Shown one piece after another: positions 3,948 to 52,507 of a stretch of 53,326 nt of DNA (position 1 is its first letter; each line of letters starts with the position of its first letter). This DNA is from Marinobacterium profundum (lineage in GTDB: Bacteria; Pseudomonadota; Gammaproteobacteria; Pseudomonadales; Balneatricaceae). Position numbers and translations under genes: made by a program. Location: contig NZ_BCNS01000125.1 in the NCBI RefSeq assembly GCF_001528745.1, forward strand, positions 1-53,326, in the 5' to 3' direction. The notes beneath the pieces were generated by a model, which saw only the letters and a program-made list of their open reading frames with translations, searched no databases and had not been told where the DNA came from.

Positions 3948-4090
3948 AGAATTGCCGGTTTACACAGCGCTAGCTGCCCACCGGGCAAGCTACAGGGATG
4001 TAGCTTGTGAATAGTAGTTCTCTTAGAGCACATAAAATGACCCCTCTTTACCGAAGAGAAGTCGGCGATTCCGCCCGTAGTAGATCAGTG

Positions 4091-11135: not shown

Positions 11136-12872
11136 GTGATCTCGCTCGGGCAACTCGATCGATGGGCGGAGGCATTCGAGTACGCCGAGCACTCGAAGAG
11201 TTTGCGCCTGCGCTATCGCTCCGCGCTACAGACCTCTTCGGACCGCGAACGACTGCAGGCGCTAGAGCGGGAAATGTACAGACTGCGCCGAGGGGTGCCG
11301 AGTGACTCAAGCGACAACTCGCCCCTAGCCATGGTGCTCAATCCTGTATCCAGCGAGGTCACCCGTTACAGTCTGCTGCTGGAAGAGTATCGCCAGTTGC
11401 TAAGCGGGGTGCCGGATGCAGAATTGCAGCGAGTCGGCGTACAGCAGGTCGCCGCTCGGCTTCGACCGGACGAAGCGGTACTGTCCGTCGTCGCCGGGCA
11501 TGAACAATGCCTGGTTATGCTAGTCACAGCTTCGGATTCAGACTCTCCCGCTGTCGGGACCCTGCTGGATGACTGGAATCTCGCAACAGACGCACAGATC
11601 AATGACGGCGTCTGTTCCGGATGGCTTTACAGTCTCGCCATTCTGGACCCAGCCTTTGATCGGGCCCCGGCGCTGGACAGCTTCATCGAGAAGTTCGACG
11701 CGGCTTTGGCTCCTCGCATAAAAGCGTCGATCGAGGAACACGGAATTCGCCGGCTGACGGTAATCCCGCACGACTTCATGCGCCTGGCGCCATTCTGGGC
11801 ACTGCCCTGTCTGCGGGACTTGCAGGTGACGCTGGAGATCTGTGCGGCGACCTTTCTCGATCAAGGCGCCAACCTGGCGGCGCGCATCTCCAATGCCGCA
11901 GTGGTCAGCGATCCGCTGCTGGACTTGCCCGCGGCGCTGGCTGATACATCCGCTGTTATCGATGCCTTGTCGGCTTTTGGCCTCCCCATAGATCGACTAC
12001 AGGGTCTAAAGGCCGATCGCAGCAATTTGCAGAGGGTCTTGAAGCAGACCGACTGGCTGCACTATTCGGGGCACGGTCACATACCGCTTACCGACCCGCT
12101 GGAAGCCTCATTACTGCTGAATCCAGCCTGGGGTTCGTCGAAACCCGAATCCGCCGACGAATTCTGGTCTATCAGTACGGCGGCCAGCGATGATCCCCCG
12201 GTTATGATAGACGGCAAAGGCCGAATCCAGATCGCCGGTATCGGCGTGCTGGAGGAACTGGGCGATGCGGCCTGTCGCGAACGCTTTCTCCACTGCGACG
12301 ATGGCCGCACGCTCTGGGGTACGGCCGACGAGGCTAAGCGCGGCTGCGTCGCTGATCGCTATTGCGCGGCACAGCTGTTGAGCGATGCCGACGAGCACAT
12401 GCCGAAGGTCGCCAATCTTGCCACTTGCAGCCTTGGCGCCAGTGGCTTTACCGATGTCGAGGAATGGCAGGGCCTGGTTGCTGCGTTTCATCTCGCAGGT
12501 GTAAACTCAATTATCGCCGGCCTCTGGCCGGTCTCGGACGTCGCCGCGGCTGTATTTGTGCAGCTTTTCTACCAGGAAATGCGCGAGTATTCGCGCGACA
12601 ACGCAGACGGCTCCGTCGATGTCGATCTCTGCGCCGCGTTGAGCGAGGCTTCACATAAAATGAGCACGCTATCGCGCGATTTGAGTGCTAGCCTGCTGCA
12701 AAGGGCGGCCCGGCGCGAACGCGCCGCATCTCCCCGCGAAGCGCTGCAGCTTGAGCTGATCGCGGTGCGCATGCGAGAGGCAGACGAGTATCCGTTCACA
12801 TCCGCTTATCAGCACGCGGCCTTTTATCTGCTTGGGCAATCCCGGGTTACACTGCCGAGGAGACCTTTATGA
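11136..12872 (+). CDS. CHAT-domain protease (C-terminal part of the MITE-split TPR-CHAT gene)
   Basis: A 578-aa frame from a GTG at 11136; the coding sequence is open back to 11064 and originally continued from the gene at 9770. Residues 1-50 are the last TPR helices (DRWAEAFEYAEHSKSLRLRY). From about 100 on is a CHAT protease: His313 in LHYSGHGHI and Cys431 in NLATCSLGASG, followed by the conserved AFHLAGVNSIIAGLWPVSD. An insert of about 100 residues separates His and Cys. It is distant from the CHAT protein at 442-2040. The stop TGA overlaps the next start (ATGA), with GAGGAGA before it, so the operon order is intact downstream. Whether the C-terminal part is still translated from GTG is unknown; a lone CHAT domain without its TPR brake might be unregulated. 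Confidence 0.82.
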   Translation: MISLGQLDRWAEAFEYAEHSKSLRLRYRSALQTSSDRERLQALEREMYRLRRGVPSDSSDNSPLAMVLNPVSSEVTRYSLLLEEYRQLLSGVPDAELQRVGVQQVAARLRPDEAVLSVVAGHEQCLVMLVTASDSDSPAVGTLLDDWNLATDAQINDGVCSGWLYSLAILDPAFDRAPALDSFIEKFDAALAPRIKASIEEHGIRRLTVIPHDFMRLAPFWALPCLRDLQVTLEICAATFLDQGANLAARISNAAVVSDPLLDLPAALADTSAVIDALSAFGLPIDRLQGLKADRSNLQRVLKQTDWLHYSGHGHIPLTDPLEASLLLNPAWGSSKPESADEFWSISTAASDDPPVMIDGKGRIQIAGIGVLEELGDAACRERFLHCDDGRTLWGTADEAKRGCVADRYCAAQLLSDADEHMPKVANLATCSLGASGFTDVEEWQGLVAAFHLAGVNSIIAGLWPVSDVAAAVFVQLFYQEMREYSRDNADGSVDVDLCAALSEASHKMSTLSRDLSASLLQRAARRERAASPREALQLELIAVRMREADEYPFTSAYQHAAFYLLGQSRVTLPRRPL

Positions 12873-18266: not shown

Positions 18267-18454
18267 TATGTAAACCCATTTATGGCATTTTGACTGCAAA
18301 CGATTTGTATCCTGGCCTCGAGGCCAAATTGCCTGATCCAGTATTGCCTGATGAATTTTCGTCAAAAACGGGGGCAATCGCACACTGGATCTACAAACAC
18401 GGGTAGACGCCTGAAAAACACGCTACCGCCCTTCCGATAACGGAATACTGCCTC

Positions 18455-18591: not shown

Positions 18592-18899
18592 ATGATCAAA
18601 AATAAACCAAAACTCGAAAAACAACCCCGAGCCTGGCGGTCCACCTGCCTGACCAGGCGCTGCGCCACTGGATCAACGGCAGCGGCCAGGGCGGAAAAGG
18701 CGATGGGCAGATTGATCCCGGTATGTGGATCACCCAGGCGGTCGATCTTCTCCCGGTGCTGGTCGGCGAGGTTTTTCGAGGTGCCCTATACTCAAATGAC
18801 ACTAGCAGCCTTTCCCTCGCGACGACCGGCCAAGCCCGACAGGCAGCCAGGGAACCCAACTTGGGTTCGACTATCGATTTTTTGTATGAGGTGATCCCA
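18592..18899 (+). pseudogene. Decayed short coding stretch upstream of the caspase-like gene
   Basis: An ATG at 18592 opens MIKNKPKLEKQP in one frame. From about 18630 the coding-like sequence is in another frame: SLAVHLPDQALRHWINGSG, then DPGMWITQAVDLLPVLVGEVF, open to the caspase-like gene. The stretch after copy 1 of the upstream element (about 9605) reads SVAIGLPHGP, similar to SLAVHLPDQA. So a small gene or N-terminal module may once have followed both elements. No family recognised. Confidence 0.35.
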
Positions 18900-21593
18900 A
18901 TGCCCCCTCCCTTTTCACAACTCAACCAAGACGAATTCTCTGAACTACTGGCGCAGTTCAGCTTCACCCGGCGTATTAATATGGTGCACGTCCATCATAC
19001 CTGGCGGCCGAACCATGCTCAGTATCGGGGGCATGCCTCTATAGAAGGCATGTGGCGCCATCACACTCAGACCAATGGCTGGCGGGATATCGCGCAACAT
19101 GTGTCCATTGGTCCCGAAGGAGCCATCTGGCTGGGCCGCAACTTCAACCTGTCACCGGCGAGCGCTGCGGGGCATAACGGGTCGCTGGATAGCGGCCCTT
19201 TTATGATTGAAGTTATTGGTGATTTCGACCTCGGCCAGGATCAGCTGATGGGGTCGCAGCGATCAGCCCTGATCCATGTTATTGCAGCCGTACAAGGGCA
19301 TTTTAATTTGCCCAGCACGGCCATCATGTTTCATAACATGATGTCGACGAAGAGTTGCCCCGGGACCTCAGTCGTATTTGACGAACTGGTGGGCGAAGTC
19401 CAAGCCAAGCAGGCCAGCGCACTGCGCAATAGGCAGATGACAGAGCAGCAGCGGCGTATTGCCGAAGCCTTAACGCAACTTAACAGGGAAGTACCCGCGC
19501 CCCGTGGCGACGAATCTCTTGCCGAGCATGACCCCCAGGGTGAGTTTGAACGGGGTGGTTTTGGGTCTTCTTCCGGCCTGAGCAGCGATATAATCGACAG
19601 CCTGCGACCGCATGTCATCAACCTGCGCGGAGGGCAATTCTCAAACGACGGCAGCATGACAACCACGCCCCAGGAGGTCGATACGCTCATCGACCAGCAT
19701 CTAGAGGCGGCTCTCGCTCAGGCCCAGGCACAACAGCAGCCCCTGCGAATTATGCTGTATGCCCACGGTGGGCTGGTGGACGAGAATGCTGGCCTGATGC
19801 AAGCCTATAAGCGTCTTGCCTGGTGGAAAAAGAATCATATTTATCCGATCAGCTTTGTCTGGGAGTCCGGCCTTTTTGAAACCATTACCGATCGACTGAA
19901 AAAAGCATTGGGCCAAGGTGAGAGGGCCATCGACTTTTTTGCCCCCACCGACTTTATTATTGAGAAATCGGCTCGGGCACTGAAGGTGGACAACATCTGG
20001 CGAGGCATGAAGAGTGCGGCAGAAGCCGCCAGTGCCGATGATGGTGGTGCCTTCTACACCGCAAAAAAACTGCAGGGATTTTGTGCTCGGCACGCTAATA
20101 ACGTTGAATTGCACGCCGTGGGTCACAGCGCCGGATCCATCTTTCACGCCTATTTGCTAACTGCCTGTCAACGTCTTGGTCTGCCAGCCTTTCGCTCGCT
20201 ACAATTACTGGCCCCTGCCGCTAATATCGACCTCTTCAAGAGTCATATTGTGCCTTTGCTTGGGCACAAACACGGCGTTGACAAGCTCACCCTGTTTACC
20301 ATGACTCGCCACTATGAGAAGGCGGACCATTGCGCTCATATTTATCGAAAATCCCTGCTCTACCTGGTCTCTGCAGCCCTTGAGACACGGGTAAATACGC
20401 CAATTTCAGGTCTGGATGAATCTTTGCGTGCTGATGCCGAAACCGTTGATTTATTCGGCCTGGGGGGCCGCCCAGGGCGCGCGGATATCCACTGGGCCGT
20501 ATCCAGCACCACGGCGTCCACTTCACACGGTGGATTTGATGATGACACGGCAACCCTGGCCAGCGTGGTACGTAACATTCGGGGTTTAAGCCAAACGGAC
20601 CCTGTCGTGGATTACCCATTGAAAGATGATGGCAACGCGAAGCGAGGCGCAACAGCCGGCAACCGCTACGCCCTGTGTATTGGTATTAATCAATACTCAC
20701 GCAAACCCTTGGCTGGCTGCGTGGCAGATGCCCAGGCCTGGGGTACCTGGCTGGGGAGCCACGGCTTTGAAGTCAGCTTTCTACTGGATCAGGAAGCCAG
20801 GGCGGCTGCCATTGTGGATGGCATCGATAAATTGCTGTCGAAGGCGACGGCTGAGGATGTGGTGGTCATCCAGTTTGCCGGCCACGGTACTCAGATCGCT
20901 GATAATTCTGGCGATGAAGCGGATCAACTTGATGAGGCCTGGGTGCCGGTTGATTTTGAGTCCGGTAACTTCATTATTGATGACATGCTGGGAGACCTGT
21001 TCGATCGTCATCGTGACCGAGGCGTAGAACTCGTGCTGTTCACTGATTGCTGCCACTCCGGTACTAGCACCCGTGCCGCATTTGACGCCCAGGCACCAGA
21101 GAATCAGAGTAATAGTCGTTTTCTTGACGTCGAACCCGAGCTGCAGAGACAATTCAATCAAAAGCACGCTGCCAGAACACTCGCAACGACCCGAAATGAT
21201 GCTGTTGGCTGGGAGATTCACTATGCCGCCTGTCAGGATCACCAGTCCGCCTATGAAGAGAACGGACAGGGCAATTTCACCCGGGCCAGCCTTAACATTC
21301 TGCAGGCCATAACCGATAACCAGATGACGTACGGTATGCTGGCCGACAACATCATCAAAAGCTTCAGCAACAACCATCTGCAGACACCCAACTTCCGCGC
21401 CCGCAGTCACCGACGTGGGCAAAAGCTGTTTAGCGCCCTATCACAGCAGGGCGCCACGCCCAGCAGCCAAAGCACCCATGTGAATATCAGCCATGCCCAT
21501 ACCCCCCCAGAGTACACAGACTCGCTTGAGAGAATAGAGCGCAGACTGGATGAAATTTCCAGCCTTCTTCGCAATAGACCCAGTAACGGCTGA
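18900..21593 (+). CDS. PGRP/amidase + alpha/beta-hydrolase + caspase-like triple-domain protein
   Basis: An 897-aa protein with three enzymatic modules. (1) Residues 20-165: N-acetylmuramoyl-L-alanine amidase/PGRP fold (MVHVHHTWRP, GWRDIAQHVSIGPEGAIW, IEVIGDFD) with Zn ligands near His33, His145 and Cys153 (FHNMMSTKSCPG), the spacing seen in T7 lysozyme. (2) Residues 280-495: alpha/beta-hydrolase (IMLYAHGGLVDE; AVGHSAGS, Ser410). (3) Residues 588-800: C14 caspase/metacaspase-type domain (ALCIGINQY; His662 in FAGHGTQ; Cys718 in FTDCCHSG). A predicted coiled coil ends it (SLERIERRLDEISSLLRN). No signal peptide. ATG at 18900 is chosen for GAGGTGA 5 bases upstream; the frame is open further back. 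Cell-wall fragment sensing wired to a protease is an attractive reading. Coupled to the metallopeptidase 3 bases downstream. Confidence 0.9.
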   Translation: MPPPFSQLNQDEFSELLAQFSFTRRINMVHVHHTWRPNHAQYRGHASIEGMWRHHTQTNGWRDIAQHVSIGPEGAIWLGRNFNLSPASAAGHNGSLDSGPFMIEVIGDFDLGQDQLMGSQRSALIHVIAAVQGHFNLPSTAIMFHNMMSTKSCPGTSVVFDELVGEVQAKQASALRNRQMTEQQRRIAEALTQLNREVPAPRGDESLAEHDPQGEFERGGFGSSSGLSSDIIDSLRPHVINLRGGQFSNDGSMTTTPQEVDTLIDQHLEAALAQAQAQQQPLRIMLYAHGGLVDENAGLMQAYKRLAWWKKNHIYPISFVWESGLFETITDRLKKALGQGERAIDFFAPTDFIIEKSARALKVDNIWRGMKSAAEAASADDGGAFYTAKKLQGFCARHANNVELHAVGHSAGSIFHAYLLTACQRLGLPAFRSLQLLAPAANIDLFKSHIVPLLGHKHGVDKLTLFTMTRHYEKADHCAHIYRKSLLYLVSAALETRVNTPISGLDESLRADAETVDLFGLGGRPGRADIHWAVSSTTASTSHGGFDDDTATLASVVRNIRGLSQTDPVVDYPLKDDGNAKRGATAGNRYALCIGINQYSRKPLAGCVADAQAWGTWLGSHGFEVSFLLDQEARAAAIVDGIDKLLSKATAEDVVVIQFAGHGTQIADNSGDEADQLDEAWVPVDFESGNFIIDDMLGDLFDRHRDRGVELVLFTDCCHSGTSTRAAFDAQAPENQSNSRFLDVEPELQRQFNQKHAARTLATTRNDAVGWEIHYAACQDHQSAYEENGQGNFTRASLNILQAITDNQMTYGMLADNIIKSFSNNHLQTPNFRARSHRRGQKLFSALSQQGATPSSQSTHVNISHAHTPPEYTDSLERIERRLDEISSLLRNRPSNG

Positions 21594-21596
21594 GTA

Positions 21597-23447
21597 ATGA
21601 TGACCGAGCAGATTCGGTTTGGCGATCGCTTATTTTTACCGGTGCTAATGGCGCCCTATCGCCTTCGCGCCGATGATCCGCCGCAGCGTAAATTGTGGAT
21701 CTACGTTTTGGATCCGGCCGGTATAGGCCTGAAGAAACCGACTCAATGTGTCGATATTCCCTATGAGCCCCTGGGCGCAGAAGGTATCCGTGGCGCCGTG
21801 TTTGAAGTAGAGCACGCGCCCTTGCCGAGTTATCTTCGCAAGCATCTCGATTGGCCTGATCGGCTTATTCAGGAGTTTGAAAATAAACCCTTGCATCTCG
21901 ATGAACCCAGACTGGCCATGTCTGGGGGCATTGCGCCCTGTACGGGAACTCCCCTGTTTGCGGGTCAGATGGCGTATGCGGTATGCCAACGCGTGTACGA
22001 GTCTTTCACCGAGGCCCTCGGCCGCTCTCCAACCTGGGGCCCCTGGGCGGCGCACCGTATTCGTAACGGCGAGGCAGCCACGCTAAGAATACAACCCTTC
22101 GCACTTGAAGAGGCCAACGCCTACTATGATGCCGACAGTGGAACACTCAAATTCGGTGTCTTTGAAACAGTGCCTGACGGTTCGAGCAACCTGTTACCCG
22201 GTGGGCTCGTGATGACGACCCTGTCCCATGACATTATCGCCCATGAGGTAACCCACGCTCTGCTCGATGGTATGCGCGCCCATTTTCGGGTGAATACACA
22301 CCCTGATGTGCCAGCCTTTCATGAAGGGTTCGCCGATCTGGTGGCTCTGTTTCAGCACTTTCGGTATCCCAGCCTGGTAGAACAGGCCATTGAAGACCAC
22401 GGCGGGCTGAACTCAGACATGCTGCTGGAATTGGGCAGGGAATTCGGCGAAGCGCTGAGTGGTGTAGAAGGAAGATCCTTGCGCCACGCCATACAGCAGA
22501 CGGTTCTGCCTGGCCAGAGTGCAGACAGCCAACCACTGAGTTATACAGACGCACCCGTGAATGAACCGCACAAGCGATCTGGTGTTCTGGTCTCGGCCAT
22601 ATTCTCCGCCTATTTACAGATATACGAAGGCCGCGCGAAAGAACTGCTCCGGCTCGCCAACTTTGCCACCCATGGACAACAACAGCGCGCCTTGCCAAGC
22701 GAACTTATTTCTCTGCTGGCAAACGAGGCCACAAAAATAGCCGAGGAGTTTCTCAACGTCTGTATCAGGGCAATTGACTACTGCCCTCCCCTGGACGTGC
22801 GCTTCGGTGACTATCTGCGCGCGATCATCACTGCCGACCGGATGCTGAACAAGGAAGACGGTACCGGTATGCGCGAAGCCCTCATACGCGAGTTTCGTCG
22901 CCGAAATGTAGATTTGCGTAAAGTGCGCGATTTAAGTGAATATTCACTCGAATGGAACTCACCTTCACCGATAGACAGACCTCAGATACCGGGGCTTGCC
23001 TGGTCTCAATTGCGCTTCGCCAATGATGGTTTAACGGCGCAAAGCGTAGCAGAAGTAGAGCAGCAGGCCGGGGCACTTGGAGACTTTCTGTCCTTTCAGT
23101 TAGATCAAGGCAGCCAGCTTGTCTCTGAGCTTGGTCTCACGGGTATCAGCGGTGATTTTGGGCCTATAACCATTGAATCGCTTCGTCCGGTTGCCAGGCG
23201 TGCTCGAAACGGACGGTTACTGCACGGTATGGTCGCCGAAATTTCACAGTGCTGCAGTACCCCTGACGGCCCCGCCTGGGGTGGCTCCACCTTGGTGCTG
23301 ACGGAAGAAGGTCAAATAGAGTTCGCCATCCGTAAACGAGTCGATGATGAAGAACGCCTGTCGGCTCAGCGAAAAAACCTGAGAGATTCAGAGGGAAATC
23401 CAAACTTTTCATTCAAACATATGCATGGCTTACATGACCAGGGATAA
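21597..23447 (+). CDS. HExxH zinc metallopeptidase (M4-like gluzincin)
   Basis: A 616-aa protein. The zinc site is HDIIAHEVTHALLDGM (His216, Glu217, His220) with the third ligand Glu243 in AFHEGFADLVALF, the thermolysin (M4-like) arrangement. An upstream strand NAYYDADSGTLKFGVF also fits M4-like enzymes. No signal or propeptide is seen, so unlike secreted thermolysins it should be cytoplasmic. The C-terminal 250 aa (RRARNGRLLHGMVAEI, EGQIEFAIRKRV) is a separate unrecognised domain. Start ATG at 21597 or 21600; it begins 3 bases after the caspase-like gene. Likely a second effector or activating protease of the same system. Its stop lies in a GGATAAATGGGGTCAG repeat. Confidence 0.82.
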   Translation: MMTEQIRFGDRLFLPVLMAPYRLRADDPPQRKLWIYVLDPAGIGLKKPTQCVDIPYEPLGAEGIRGAVFEVEHAPLPSYLRKHLDWPDRLIQEFENKPLHLDEPRLAMSGGIAPCTGTPLFAGQMAYAVCQRVYESFTEALGRSPTWGPWAAHRIRNGEAATLRIQPFALEEANAYYDADSGTLKFGVFETVPDGSSNLLPGGLVMTTLSHDIIAHEVTHALLDGMRAHFRVNTHPDVPAFHEGFADLVALFQHFRYPSLVEQAIEDHGGLNSDMLLELGREFGEALSGVEGRSLRHAIQQTVLPGQSADSQPLSYTDAPVNEPHKRSGVLVSAIFSAYLQIYEGRAKELLRLANFATHGQQQRALPSELISLLANEATKIAEEFLNVCIRAIDYCPPLDVRFGDYLRAIITADRMLNKEDGTGMREALIREFRRRNVDLRKVRDLSEYSLEWNSPSPIDRPQIPGLAWSQLRFANDGLTAQSVAEVEQQAGALGDFLSFQLDQGSQLVSELGLTGISGDFGPITIESLRPVARRARNGRLLHGMVAEISQCCSTPDGPAWGGSTLVLTEEGQIEFAIRKRVDDEERLSAQRKNLRDSEGNPNFSFKHMHGLHDQG

Positions 23448-51548: not shown

Positions 51549-52507
51549 TATCCAACCACATCGACCTGCTCCAGCATCTGCCGGATCAGGGCCTCGCTGC
51601 CGTGTCCGCCCACCTGCTCGGCCACGCGCAGTCGATGCCCTACCACTGGCTCCAGCAGGCTTTGCAAATCCTCGGGCACAACATAGTCGCGTCCGTGCAT
51701 ATAGGCCCAGGTGCGAGCACACTGCAACAGCGCCAGACTACCCCGCGGGGACACACCATAGGCAAACTGGGGTGATTCACGGGTGTACTGCACCAGTCGC
51801 TGCAAGTAATCGATCAGGCTGCTGGACACCCTCACCGCCTGACACTCGGTGCGAATGGCCTCCAGATCATCCTGATCAATACAGACCGCCAGGGGCGCAC
51901 GCCTGTGACGACTGTGACCTTCTGTGAGCAGCTTGCGTTCGGCTTCCGGGTCCGGATAGCCCAGTTCAATTCTCATCAAAAAGCGATCCAGCTGCGATTC
52001 TGGCAGTGGGAAGGTACCAAACTGGGTGTTCGGATTCTGCGTCGCAATCACAAAAAAGGGCTCCGGCAACGGATGACTCTGACCATCAAGCGTGACCTGG
52101 CGCTCTTCCATGGCTTCGAGCAAGGCACTTTGGGTCTTGGGCGTGGTGCGGTTGATTTCATCGGCCAACAGCATCTGGGTGAATACCGGGCCAGGGTGGA
52201 AACGAAACGCAGAAGTGCTCTGATCAAAGATGGATACACCGACAATATCCGCCGGCAGCATATCGCTGGTGAACTGAACGCGCTGAAAACTCAATCCCAG
52301 TACCTGGGCAAGTGCGTGGGCCAGGGTCGTTTTTCCCATTCCGGGCAGATCTTCAATCAGTAAATGGCCCTGGGAAAACAGACAGGTCAACGCCATTCGG
52401 ATCTGGCTTTGCTTACCCAGTATCAGGGTACCAACGCTGCTGACGGCGCGTTCGACCTTTTCCCGCAGGGCGACATTCTGTTTGTTATCCGCAGTCGATA
52501 CCTGCAT
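51548..52507 (-). CDS. MoxR-family AAA+ ATPase
   Basis: A 319-aa AAA+ protein: Walker A in EDLPGMGKTTLAHAL, Walker B MLLADEINRTTPKTQSALLEAM, sensor FFVIATQNPN, and the C-terminal lid. MoxR ATPases act with DUF58/vWA proteins in assembly or maturation of membrane complexes. Two ATGs are in frame (52513, 52507); 52507 is chosen as its spacing to GAGG (8 bases) is better. First gene of the moxR-DUF58-tgpA operon. The stop lies in the dispersed repeat. Confidence 0.93.
   Translation of the reverse strand: MQVSTADNKQNVALREKVERAVSSVGTLILGKQSQIRMALTCLFSQGHLLIEDLPGMGKTTLAHALAQVLGLSFQRVQFTSDMLPADIVGVSIFDQSTSAFRFHPGPVFTQMLLADEINRTTPKTQSALLEAMEERQVTLDGQSHPLPEPFFVIATQNPNTQFGTFPLPESQLDRFLMRIELGYPDPEAERKLLTEGHSRHRRAPLAVCIDQDDLEAIRTECQAVRVSSSLIDYLQRLVQYTRESPQFAYGVSPRGSLALLQCARTWAYMHGRDYVVPEDLQSLLEPVVGHRLRVAEQVGGHGSEALIRQMLEQVDVVG

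Follow-up and report, generated by a model that had tools for sequence, protein, structure and literature searches.

A Gene Pair from Marinobacterium profundum Encoding an Amidase−Hydrolase−Caspase Fusion and a Thermolysin-like Metallopeptidase: A Possible Cell-Demolition Module

Proteins in which an amidase domain is joined to a caspase-like protease have been described previously. In the sections of Asplund-Samuelsson et al. (2012, PMC3501461) that deal with these proteins, Amidase_2 was reported in 4 of 671 metacaspases, from Polaromonas, Nitrosococcus, Chitinophaga, and Desulfobacterium, and an amidase domain was also noted in the operon of a Geobacter sulfurreducens metacaspase. The Chitinophaga protein contains an amidase, a GDSL lipase, and a caspase, and was called a seemingly "highly destructive weapon". 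The caspases of the ternary VMAP (MoxR-vWA) systems are, according to the passages on these systems in Kaur et al. (2020, PMC7159879), always accompanied by a neighboring alpha/beta-hydrolase gene, and a role in conflict was proposed. Because of these fusions and this pairing, the general kind of system is already known. In this report, we describe a gene pair found in a stretch of 53,326 nucleotides from Marinobacterium profundum (NZ_BCNS01000125.1, our contig C125), the whole of which is called the window below. The upstream gene encodes an amidase−alpha/beta-hydrolase−caspase fusion, and the downstream gene encodes a thermolysin-like metallopeptidase.

The pair resembles the amidase-metacaspases of 2012 in that Amidase_2 and a caspase are found in one protein. 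It differs from the Chitinophaga protein as portrayed in that paper, where the lipase is of the GDSL type rather than an alpha/beta hydrolase, and where the description mentions no metallopeptidase partner. Compared by description only, the four earlier proteins may share the hidden hydrolase. The likeness to the VMAP systems, as far as these are set out in the passages cited, lies in the pairing of a caspase with an alpha/beta hydrolase and in the proposed conflict role, but in the present protein the hydrolase is part of the caspase chain, which also contains an amidase, and no MoxR-vWA-VMAP triad was recognized beside the pair. As far as the open-license literature tells, three features are new: the presence of a hidden hydrolase within an amidase-caspase fusion, the coupling of this protein to a protease of thermolysin type, and the alternation of the fusion with a metallo-β-lactamase (MBL)-fold gene within the protease family. 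None of these was found in the open-license literature searched, and neither was a published name for the cassettes of metallopeptidase and MBL-fold genes.

The fusion gene (18900..21593, + strand) encodes 897 residues and was assigned by Pfam matches and by alignment of its relatives. A longer frame begins at 18723, but the start at 18900 is favored because the first residue of the relatives is this same methionine and because GAGGTG, a candidate ribosome-binding site, is found at 18888..18893 (+). The stop codon is separated by 3 bases from the ATG of the co-directional metallopeptidase gene (21597..23447, +; alternative ATG at 21600), which encodes 616 residues. The highest 19-residue hydropathy mean is 1.17 for the fusion and 1.01 for the metallopeptidase, and the values for the first 30 positions are 0.40 and 0.58, respectively; two controls chosen by eye, a membrane protein and a secreted protein, gave 2.66 and 1.68. 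By hydropathy, neither protein has a signal peptide, as the earlier note had read from the sequence, and neither has a transmembrane segment. The metallopeptidase of the related locus L012 (loci are numbered with L throughout) has an internal peak of 1.69. Three modules in one predicted cytoplasmic chain, together with a partner metallopeptidase, constitute a real gene pair, and both the triple fusion and its coupling to a gluzincin gene 3 bases on, which the note had put forward, are upheld. The domain search that it had proposed gave Amidase_2 and Peptidase_C14 above their Pfam cut-offs; the hydrolase was recognized by motifs and family conservation.

The N-terminal module (residues 1−165, 18900..19394, +) was placed by Pfam and by alignment to PGRP-LB, a peptidoglycan recognition protein (PGRP). 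It matches Amidase_2 over residues 24−155 with 36.7 bits, relative to a Pfam cut-off of 26. The likely zinc ligands are His32, His145, and Cys153, which are invariant in five aligned modules, and Lys151 is also present. The HH pair of PGRP-LB falls on His32/His33 in the alignment, and the first histidine of that pair is what we take to be the ligand in PGRP-LB and T7 lysozyme, so His32 was preferred to His33. Of the active-site residues listed in the earlier note (His33, His145, Cys153, Ser410, His662, and Cys718), all but the first are retained. Gln66, which is invariant in the class II relatives defined below, is aligned to a tyrosine of PGRP-LB. That tyrosine is catalytic in PGRP-LB and T7 lysozyme and is not present in the window module. 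The solved structures closest to the N-terminal part are PGRP-LB, PGRP-SA, PGRP1, and two bacterial amidases.

Four relatives of this module outside the fusion are amidases: one on a viral contig (L035), one with SH3 (L071), one with LysM (L072), and one annotated as a phage lysin (L073). The KxCPG motif is present in all four, and the window module retains both this motif and the zinc ligands that it shares with them. Glutamine occupies the place of the PGRP-LB tyrosine in L035, L071, and L072 as well, and the phage lysin has tyrosine. Scans of viral contigs with the queries A1 and A6 yielded a single stand-alone amidase, from a single contig (L035 and L070). The module resembles lysin-type amidases such as that of the Rhodovulum phage vB_RhkS_P1 in its Amidase_2 match, zinc ligands, and KxCPG motif (~27% identity over residues 2−158), but differs from this lysin by its place in a three-enzyme fusion and by glutamine where the lysin has tyrosine. 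Because the stand-alone relatives are lysin-type amidases, we prefer a predicted role as effector over one as sensor of wall fragments; a role in binding or sensing is less likely.

Behind a variable linker (residues 166−236, 19395..19607, +), the second module (residues 237−570, 19608..20609, +) was delimited by motifs and by the family alignment. An HGG motif (residues 289−291), an HSAG motif with Ser410, and a late His543 occur in this order and are invariant in seven aligned family members; the window protein reads GHSAG, and the residue ahead of HSAG varies among the seven. No Pfam model matches this stretch of the window protein. Weak matches were obtained for its relatives, to DUF900 in four of seven and to Abhydrolase_6 in two of seven, and the best E value against the PDB is only 0.08. 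We therefore take the middle stretch as an alpha/beta hydrolase by motif and family, predicted to be a lipase or an esterase. One hydrolase relative, in Mesorhizobium, is a separate gene beside a caspase. As a side observation, the same hydrolase family is fused to papain-like (C1) peptidases in Sinorhizobium, in Eleftheria (by annotation), and in one genome from the same genus as the window (loci L026, L031, and L014/L050, the last being the own-genus genome).

The caspase module (residues 589−834, 20664..21401, +) matches Peptidase_C14 with 77 bits, relative to a cut-off of 21.4, and was also supported by structure matches and alignment. The solved structures closest to the C-terminal part are GSU0716 and metacaspase-1. 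The His662-Cys718 dyad of this putative protease is invariant in three aligned fusion proteins. Two described caspase systems were considered for this gene and rejected. The EACC1-associated caspase model of NCBIfam scored 24.8 bits against a cut-off of 140, and the closest upstream gene-like reading frame (17802−18383) is on the opposite strand. For the VMAP ternary system, the scan of window genes in the vicinity of the pair revealed no MoxR, vWA, or VMAP protein; a MoxR-like gene at 51551−52513, 28 kb off and near a TgpA/transglutaminase gene, scored 24.9 with bpMoxR, below the cut-off of 27.

The metallopeptidase was identified by alignment and by weak profile matches. Its HEVTH zinc motif (residues 216−220) is encoded at 22242..22256 (+), and the third ligand, E243, at 22323−22325. 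Residues H216, E217, H220, E243, D247, and H325 do not vary among the 13 members aligned. Against the PDB, the family profile retrieved only two thermolysin-family proteins, in register (E 0.5−0.6), and endothelin-converting enzyme, all of them weakly (E 0.5−0.7). Peptidase_M4 matches one of the 13 members with an E value of 0.003, and no Pfam model matches the window protein. Thermolysin itself has HExxH, ExxxD, and a distal histidine in this order, and the likeness to the M4 family consists of these elements and the weak in-register profile matches. The window protein differs from that family in having no Pfam match, no signal peptide, and a long C-terminal part.

The pair was also found in a Halioglobus metagenome-assembled genome (L009), on a plasmid of the cyanobacterium Kovacikia (L023), and in another gammaproteobacterium (L010). 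In each case, the metallopeptidase gene lies behind the fusion on the same strand, with gaps of 3 (window), 22 (L009), 4 (L010), and 322 (L023) bases. According to the earlier note, the fusion would be refuted if the modules of homologues occurred only in separate, unrelated genes; this is not the case, since the fused order is intact in the window, L009, and L023 and is also present, split over two frames, in L010. The Halioglobus proteins are 66% (fusion) and 67% (metallopeptidase) identical to those of the window. For the fusion, the nonsynonymous distance (dN) is 0.28 and the synonymous distance (dS) is 2.8, which is saturated; the metallopeptidase has a dN of 0.25, and its dS is not computable. 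Identity to L009 was determined to be 76, 72, and 63% for the amidase, hydrolase, and caspase modules, 44 and 27% for the two linkers, and 47% for the tail. The Kovacikia fusion is 42% identical, and the residues proposed to be catalytic in the three modules are the same in the window, L009, and Kovacikia. As an observation apart from the pair itself, a divergent gene at 22−1323 (−) of L009, ~1.1 kb before the fusion, appears by eye to resemble an RHS-repeat core; it has no Pfam match and is partly masked.

The whole fusion is restricted to the window's own genome among 116 family genomes, and no match among those listed for the six other genomes of the genus spans more than one module. Searches with A1 through the orders of genomes G312 and G028 (three and two genomes, respectively) added no class II locus, and the caspase piece of G312 was missed at E ≤ 1e-30. 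The metallopeptidase is more widely distributed. Relatives were found in 5 of 369 class genomes at E ≤ 1e-5 and in 8 of 398 phylum genomes at E ≤ 1e-15, the own genome included in both, and in 1 of 293 order genomes, which is the own genome. There are also relatives in 57 plasmid records, 35 of which are typed conjugative, and in two phage records, of which one is an unverified scaffold of 9.5 kb. When viral contigs were scanned with the alignment of the metallopeptidases, 31 pattern matches and no relatives were obtained.

Home-made profiles were used to compare 28 distinct loci with a metallopeptidase match, with repeat fetches of one place counted as one locus. Class I, defined by an MBL-fold gene directly downstream, comprises 20 loci; class II, defined by a fusion or caspase piece upstream, comprises 5; and 3 distant loci (L013, L043, and L049) have neither partner in the DNA examined, which is 3.4 kb for L043. 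Eight of the 20 class I loci supplied the sequences for the MBL profile and necessarily match it; L045 and L046 are nearly identical. Class II consists of the window, L009, L010, and L023, each with the fusion upstream, and L012, which carries a weak 95-residue caspase-profile piece near the contig end (E 3e-6, no Pfam match). No MBL match was found in the DNA examined at the five class II loci (5.4 kb for L012), and the MBL profile (A7) had no match in the window's own genome in a scan made without a positive control. With no MBL-fold gene behind its metallopeptidase, the pair in the window was not assigned to the class I cassettes. The class II metallopeptidases form one clade with support of 99/97 (5 of 27 rows, recovered together in 98% of 200 bootstrap trees). 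As a genomic pattern, the fusion gene replaces the MBL gene as the constant neighbor in the class II clade; that the two also replace one another in function may be inferred from this exchange.

The class I cassettes share the metallopeptidase family with the window, and nine members are 29−40% identical to the window protein by BLAST, but the MBL-fold gene is downstream there and the amidase−hydrolase−caspase gene is upstream here. A subtilase is fused to the metallopeptidase in 7 of the 20 class I loci, and genes in two frames were seen for the MBL protein (L028 and L044) and the metallopeptidase (L048). By annotation, which several loci lack, and by partial scans, lipase-type genes at class I loci include patatins (L034, L048, L030), phospholipase D (L033), and DUF2235 (L025, L032, L051), and defense genes occur near five of these loci: Hachiman HamA/HamB (L034), a CBASS cyclase (L051), SIR2 matching ThsA models (L025), and E1-like genes (L032, L030). 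Wall hydrolases are present as separate genes, namely GH25 and Amidase_2 (L028) and Cell Wall Hydrolase (L055). PADLOC was applied to ten neighbor proteins, one of them an MBL protein (L033), which matched the LmuA and Avs1a defense models; no match was obtained for the multiubiquitin protein of L032 or the 1481-residue protein of L048. Independently of the window, the combination of this MBL-fold family with the thermolysin-like protease (L034 9872−11473, L033 9874−11436, and the other class I loci) is a candidate defense cassette in its own right.

The interpretation that we favor, and hold tentatively, is that the pair is a two-gene cytoplasmic module for cell demolition, similar to abortive infection. 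The conserved active-site residues, the lack of an export signal by hydropathy, the adjacent co-directional genes, their co-occurrence in one clade, the patchy and often plasmid-borne family, and the defense genes near some relatives are all consistent with it, and the slower evolution of the modules relative to the linkers is counted in its favor. The lipase-type and wall-hydrolase genes at class I loci, the CHAT, LCAT-like, and subtilase-TPR genes and the transposase fragment within the window, and the published pairing of caspases with hydrolases in conflict systems are counted likewise. Both proteins would be kept latent in the cytoplasm until a conflict, most likely phage infection or envelope damage, provides the trigger. 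The metallopeptidase, the caspase, or both would then cleave within the rapidly evolving linkers, by which the modules would be set free. The hydrolase would attack the inner membrane and so give the amidase access to the wall, as a holin does for an endolysin, and the two proteases would destroy the proteins of the cell, with death as the result. The link to phage is contextual. The wider proposal, that the metallopeptidases mark a mobile family of immune systems in which a constant cytoplasmic thermolysin-like protease is combined with exchangeable effectors (either MBL-fold proteins with or without subtilases and lipases, or the single-chain amidase−lipase−caspase), is possible but somewhat doubtful.

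Several observations weigh against the cell-demolition interpretation. The only PADLOC model matched by the pair is "caspase"; the metallopeptidase matches none, and no anti-phage system is complete. The other PADLOC matches in the window are weak, to the IetS, subtilase, and TPR models for a subtilase-TPR protein and to BovA for one CHAT protein. Beside the pair, neither an NTPase switch nor a STAND sensor was recognized. The substrate of the hydrolase may not be a lipid. The L010 fusion and the L023 metallopeptidase are each in two frames, through either assembly error or decay. AlphaFold2 with two-row alignments gave mean predicted local distance difference test values of 33.8 and 34.2 for the two proteins, and thus no usable model. 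The tree was rooted with L049 and L013, left out L043, and included Kovacikia by the N-terminal part of its protein, and the tree tool warned of long branches for L048, L054, and the outgroup. The neighborhoods examined are those of 14 plasmid records out of 57, of one phage record, and of selected genomes, and the tally of defense neighbors is a raw count.

It was suggested in the earlier note that the amidase/PGRP module could be a cytoplasmic sensor, with wall fragments released during lysis by phage switching on the caspase, the hydrolase, and the metallopeptidase; fragments released by antibiotics might act in the same way. The three PGRPs among the closest structures (beside the two bacterial amidases), the missing export signal, and the replacement of the PGRP-LB tyrosine by Gln66 throughout class II would fit a sensor. 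However, the zinc ligands and KxCPG are kept, wall fragments would need to enter the cytoplasm, and all four relatives found outside the fusion are amidases. Since the glutamine is shared by three of them, Gln66 alone is no argument for sensing, nor is it one against. There was no sign of sensing, the suggestion was not borne out, and we consider it unlikely. It is quite unlikely that the two proteins are exported, by an extracellular contractile injection system or another route, for use against other cells. Three lytic-type enzymes in one chain with no signal peptide by hydropathy would suit such cargo, and contig C122 of the own genome carries genes for a contractile sheath and for an eCIS_core protein (26991−27482, L074, and 6375−6608, L076; controls positive in 3 of 14 and 0 of 14 genomes, respectively), which probably belong to such a system. 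That contig is not the one carrying the window, though, and no injection or immunity gene was recognized among the scanned neighbors. Delivery by a type VI secretion system was examined separately and is unlikely; no VipB sheath was found in the own genome, and the control was positive in 1 of 14 genomes, that of E. coli.

The pair might instead serve wall and protein turnover or developmental autolysis, with no role in conflict. Metacaspase-amidase proteins were linked to autolysis and developmental lysis in the sections of PMC3501461 cited above, but the patchy and often plasmid-borne distribution, the defense genes near several metallopeptidase relatives, and the restriction of the fusion to a single genome of the family, with no listed multi-module match in the six other genomes of the genus, speak against such a role, which is quite unlikely. 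The least probable of the readings is that of a weapon of mobile elements, used for counter-defense or for the maintenance of a plasmid or phage. The conjugative type of most plasmid records with a metallopeptidase relative, the two phage records, and the insertion-sequence remnants near the window copy point in this direction; against it, the window copy is on a contig with metabolic genes, and no antitoxin-like partner was recognized.

Under the wider proposal of exchangeable effectors, a single chain that breaches membrane, wall, and proteome together would be a host-made counterpart of the holin-endolysin cassette of phages. If the cell-demolition interpretation is correct, the pair would provide a compact system for testing the role of bacterial caspases and of the hydrolases paired with them, as it has only two genes and four active sites that point mutations can remove one by one. 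It would further put a name to a protease family that recurs, several times beside defense genes, on plasmids from Pseudomonadota, Bacteroidota, Deinococcota, and Planctomycetota and, in the case of the fusion class, on a plasmid of a cyanobacterium as well.

The left part of the window has the look of a mobile region rich in conflict genes. A Pfam-type scan identified two CHAT-domain (caspase-fold) proteins, one at 445−2040 (−), next to a co-directional gene for a TPR protein (2040−3791, −), and one at 11136−12869 (+). The same scan found a DDE_Tnp_1-associated transposase fragment (4111−4647); an LCAT/alpha-beta-hydrolase protein, which is a second candidate lipase (7744−9450, −); and the subtilase-TPR protein (16361−17503, −). 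No GTS-type serine motif was found in the last of these, which from its residues is perhaps an inactive S8 peptidase. Stretches of four genomes of the genus, two of them only ~5 kb long, are homologous to the window from ~26.2 kb rightwards and give only short matches leftwards. The G+C content is 0.47−0.55 over 16−26 kb and 0.54−0.62 elsewhere in the window. A 32-nucleotide inverted repeat (97%) has arms 14.3 kb apart, at 4080−4111, adjoining the transposase fragment, and at 18452−18483, ~0.4 kb before the fusion; these are possible insertion-sequence ends. Directly behind the metallopeptidase gene, a 72-residue piece (23501−23716, −) matches the 2Fe-2S domain Fer2_3 of Pfam. This piece is presumably the start of sdhB and is probably a gene fragment left by rearrangement.

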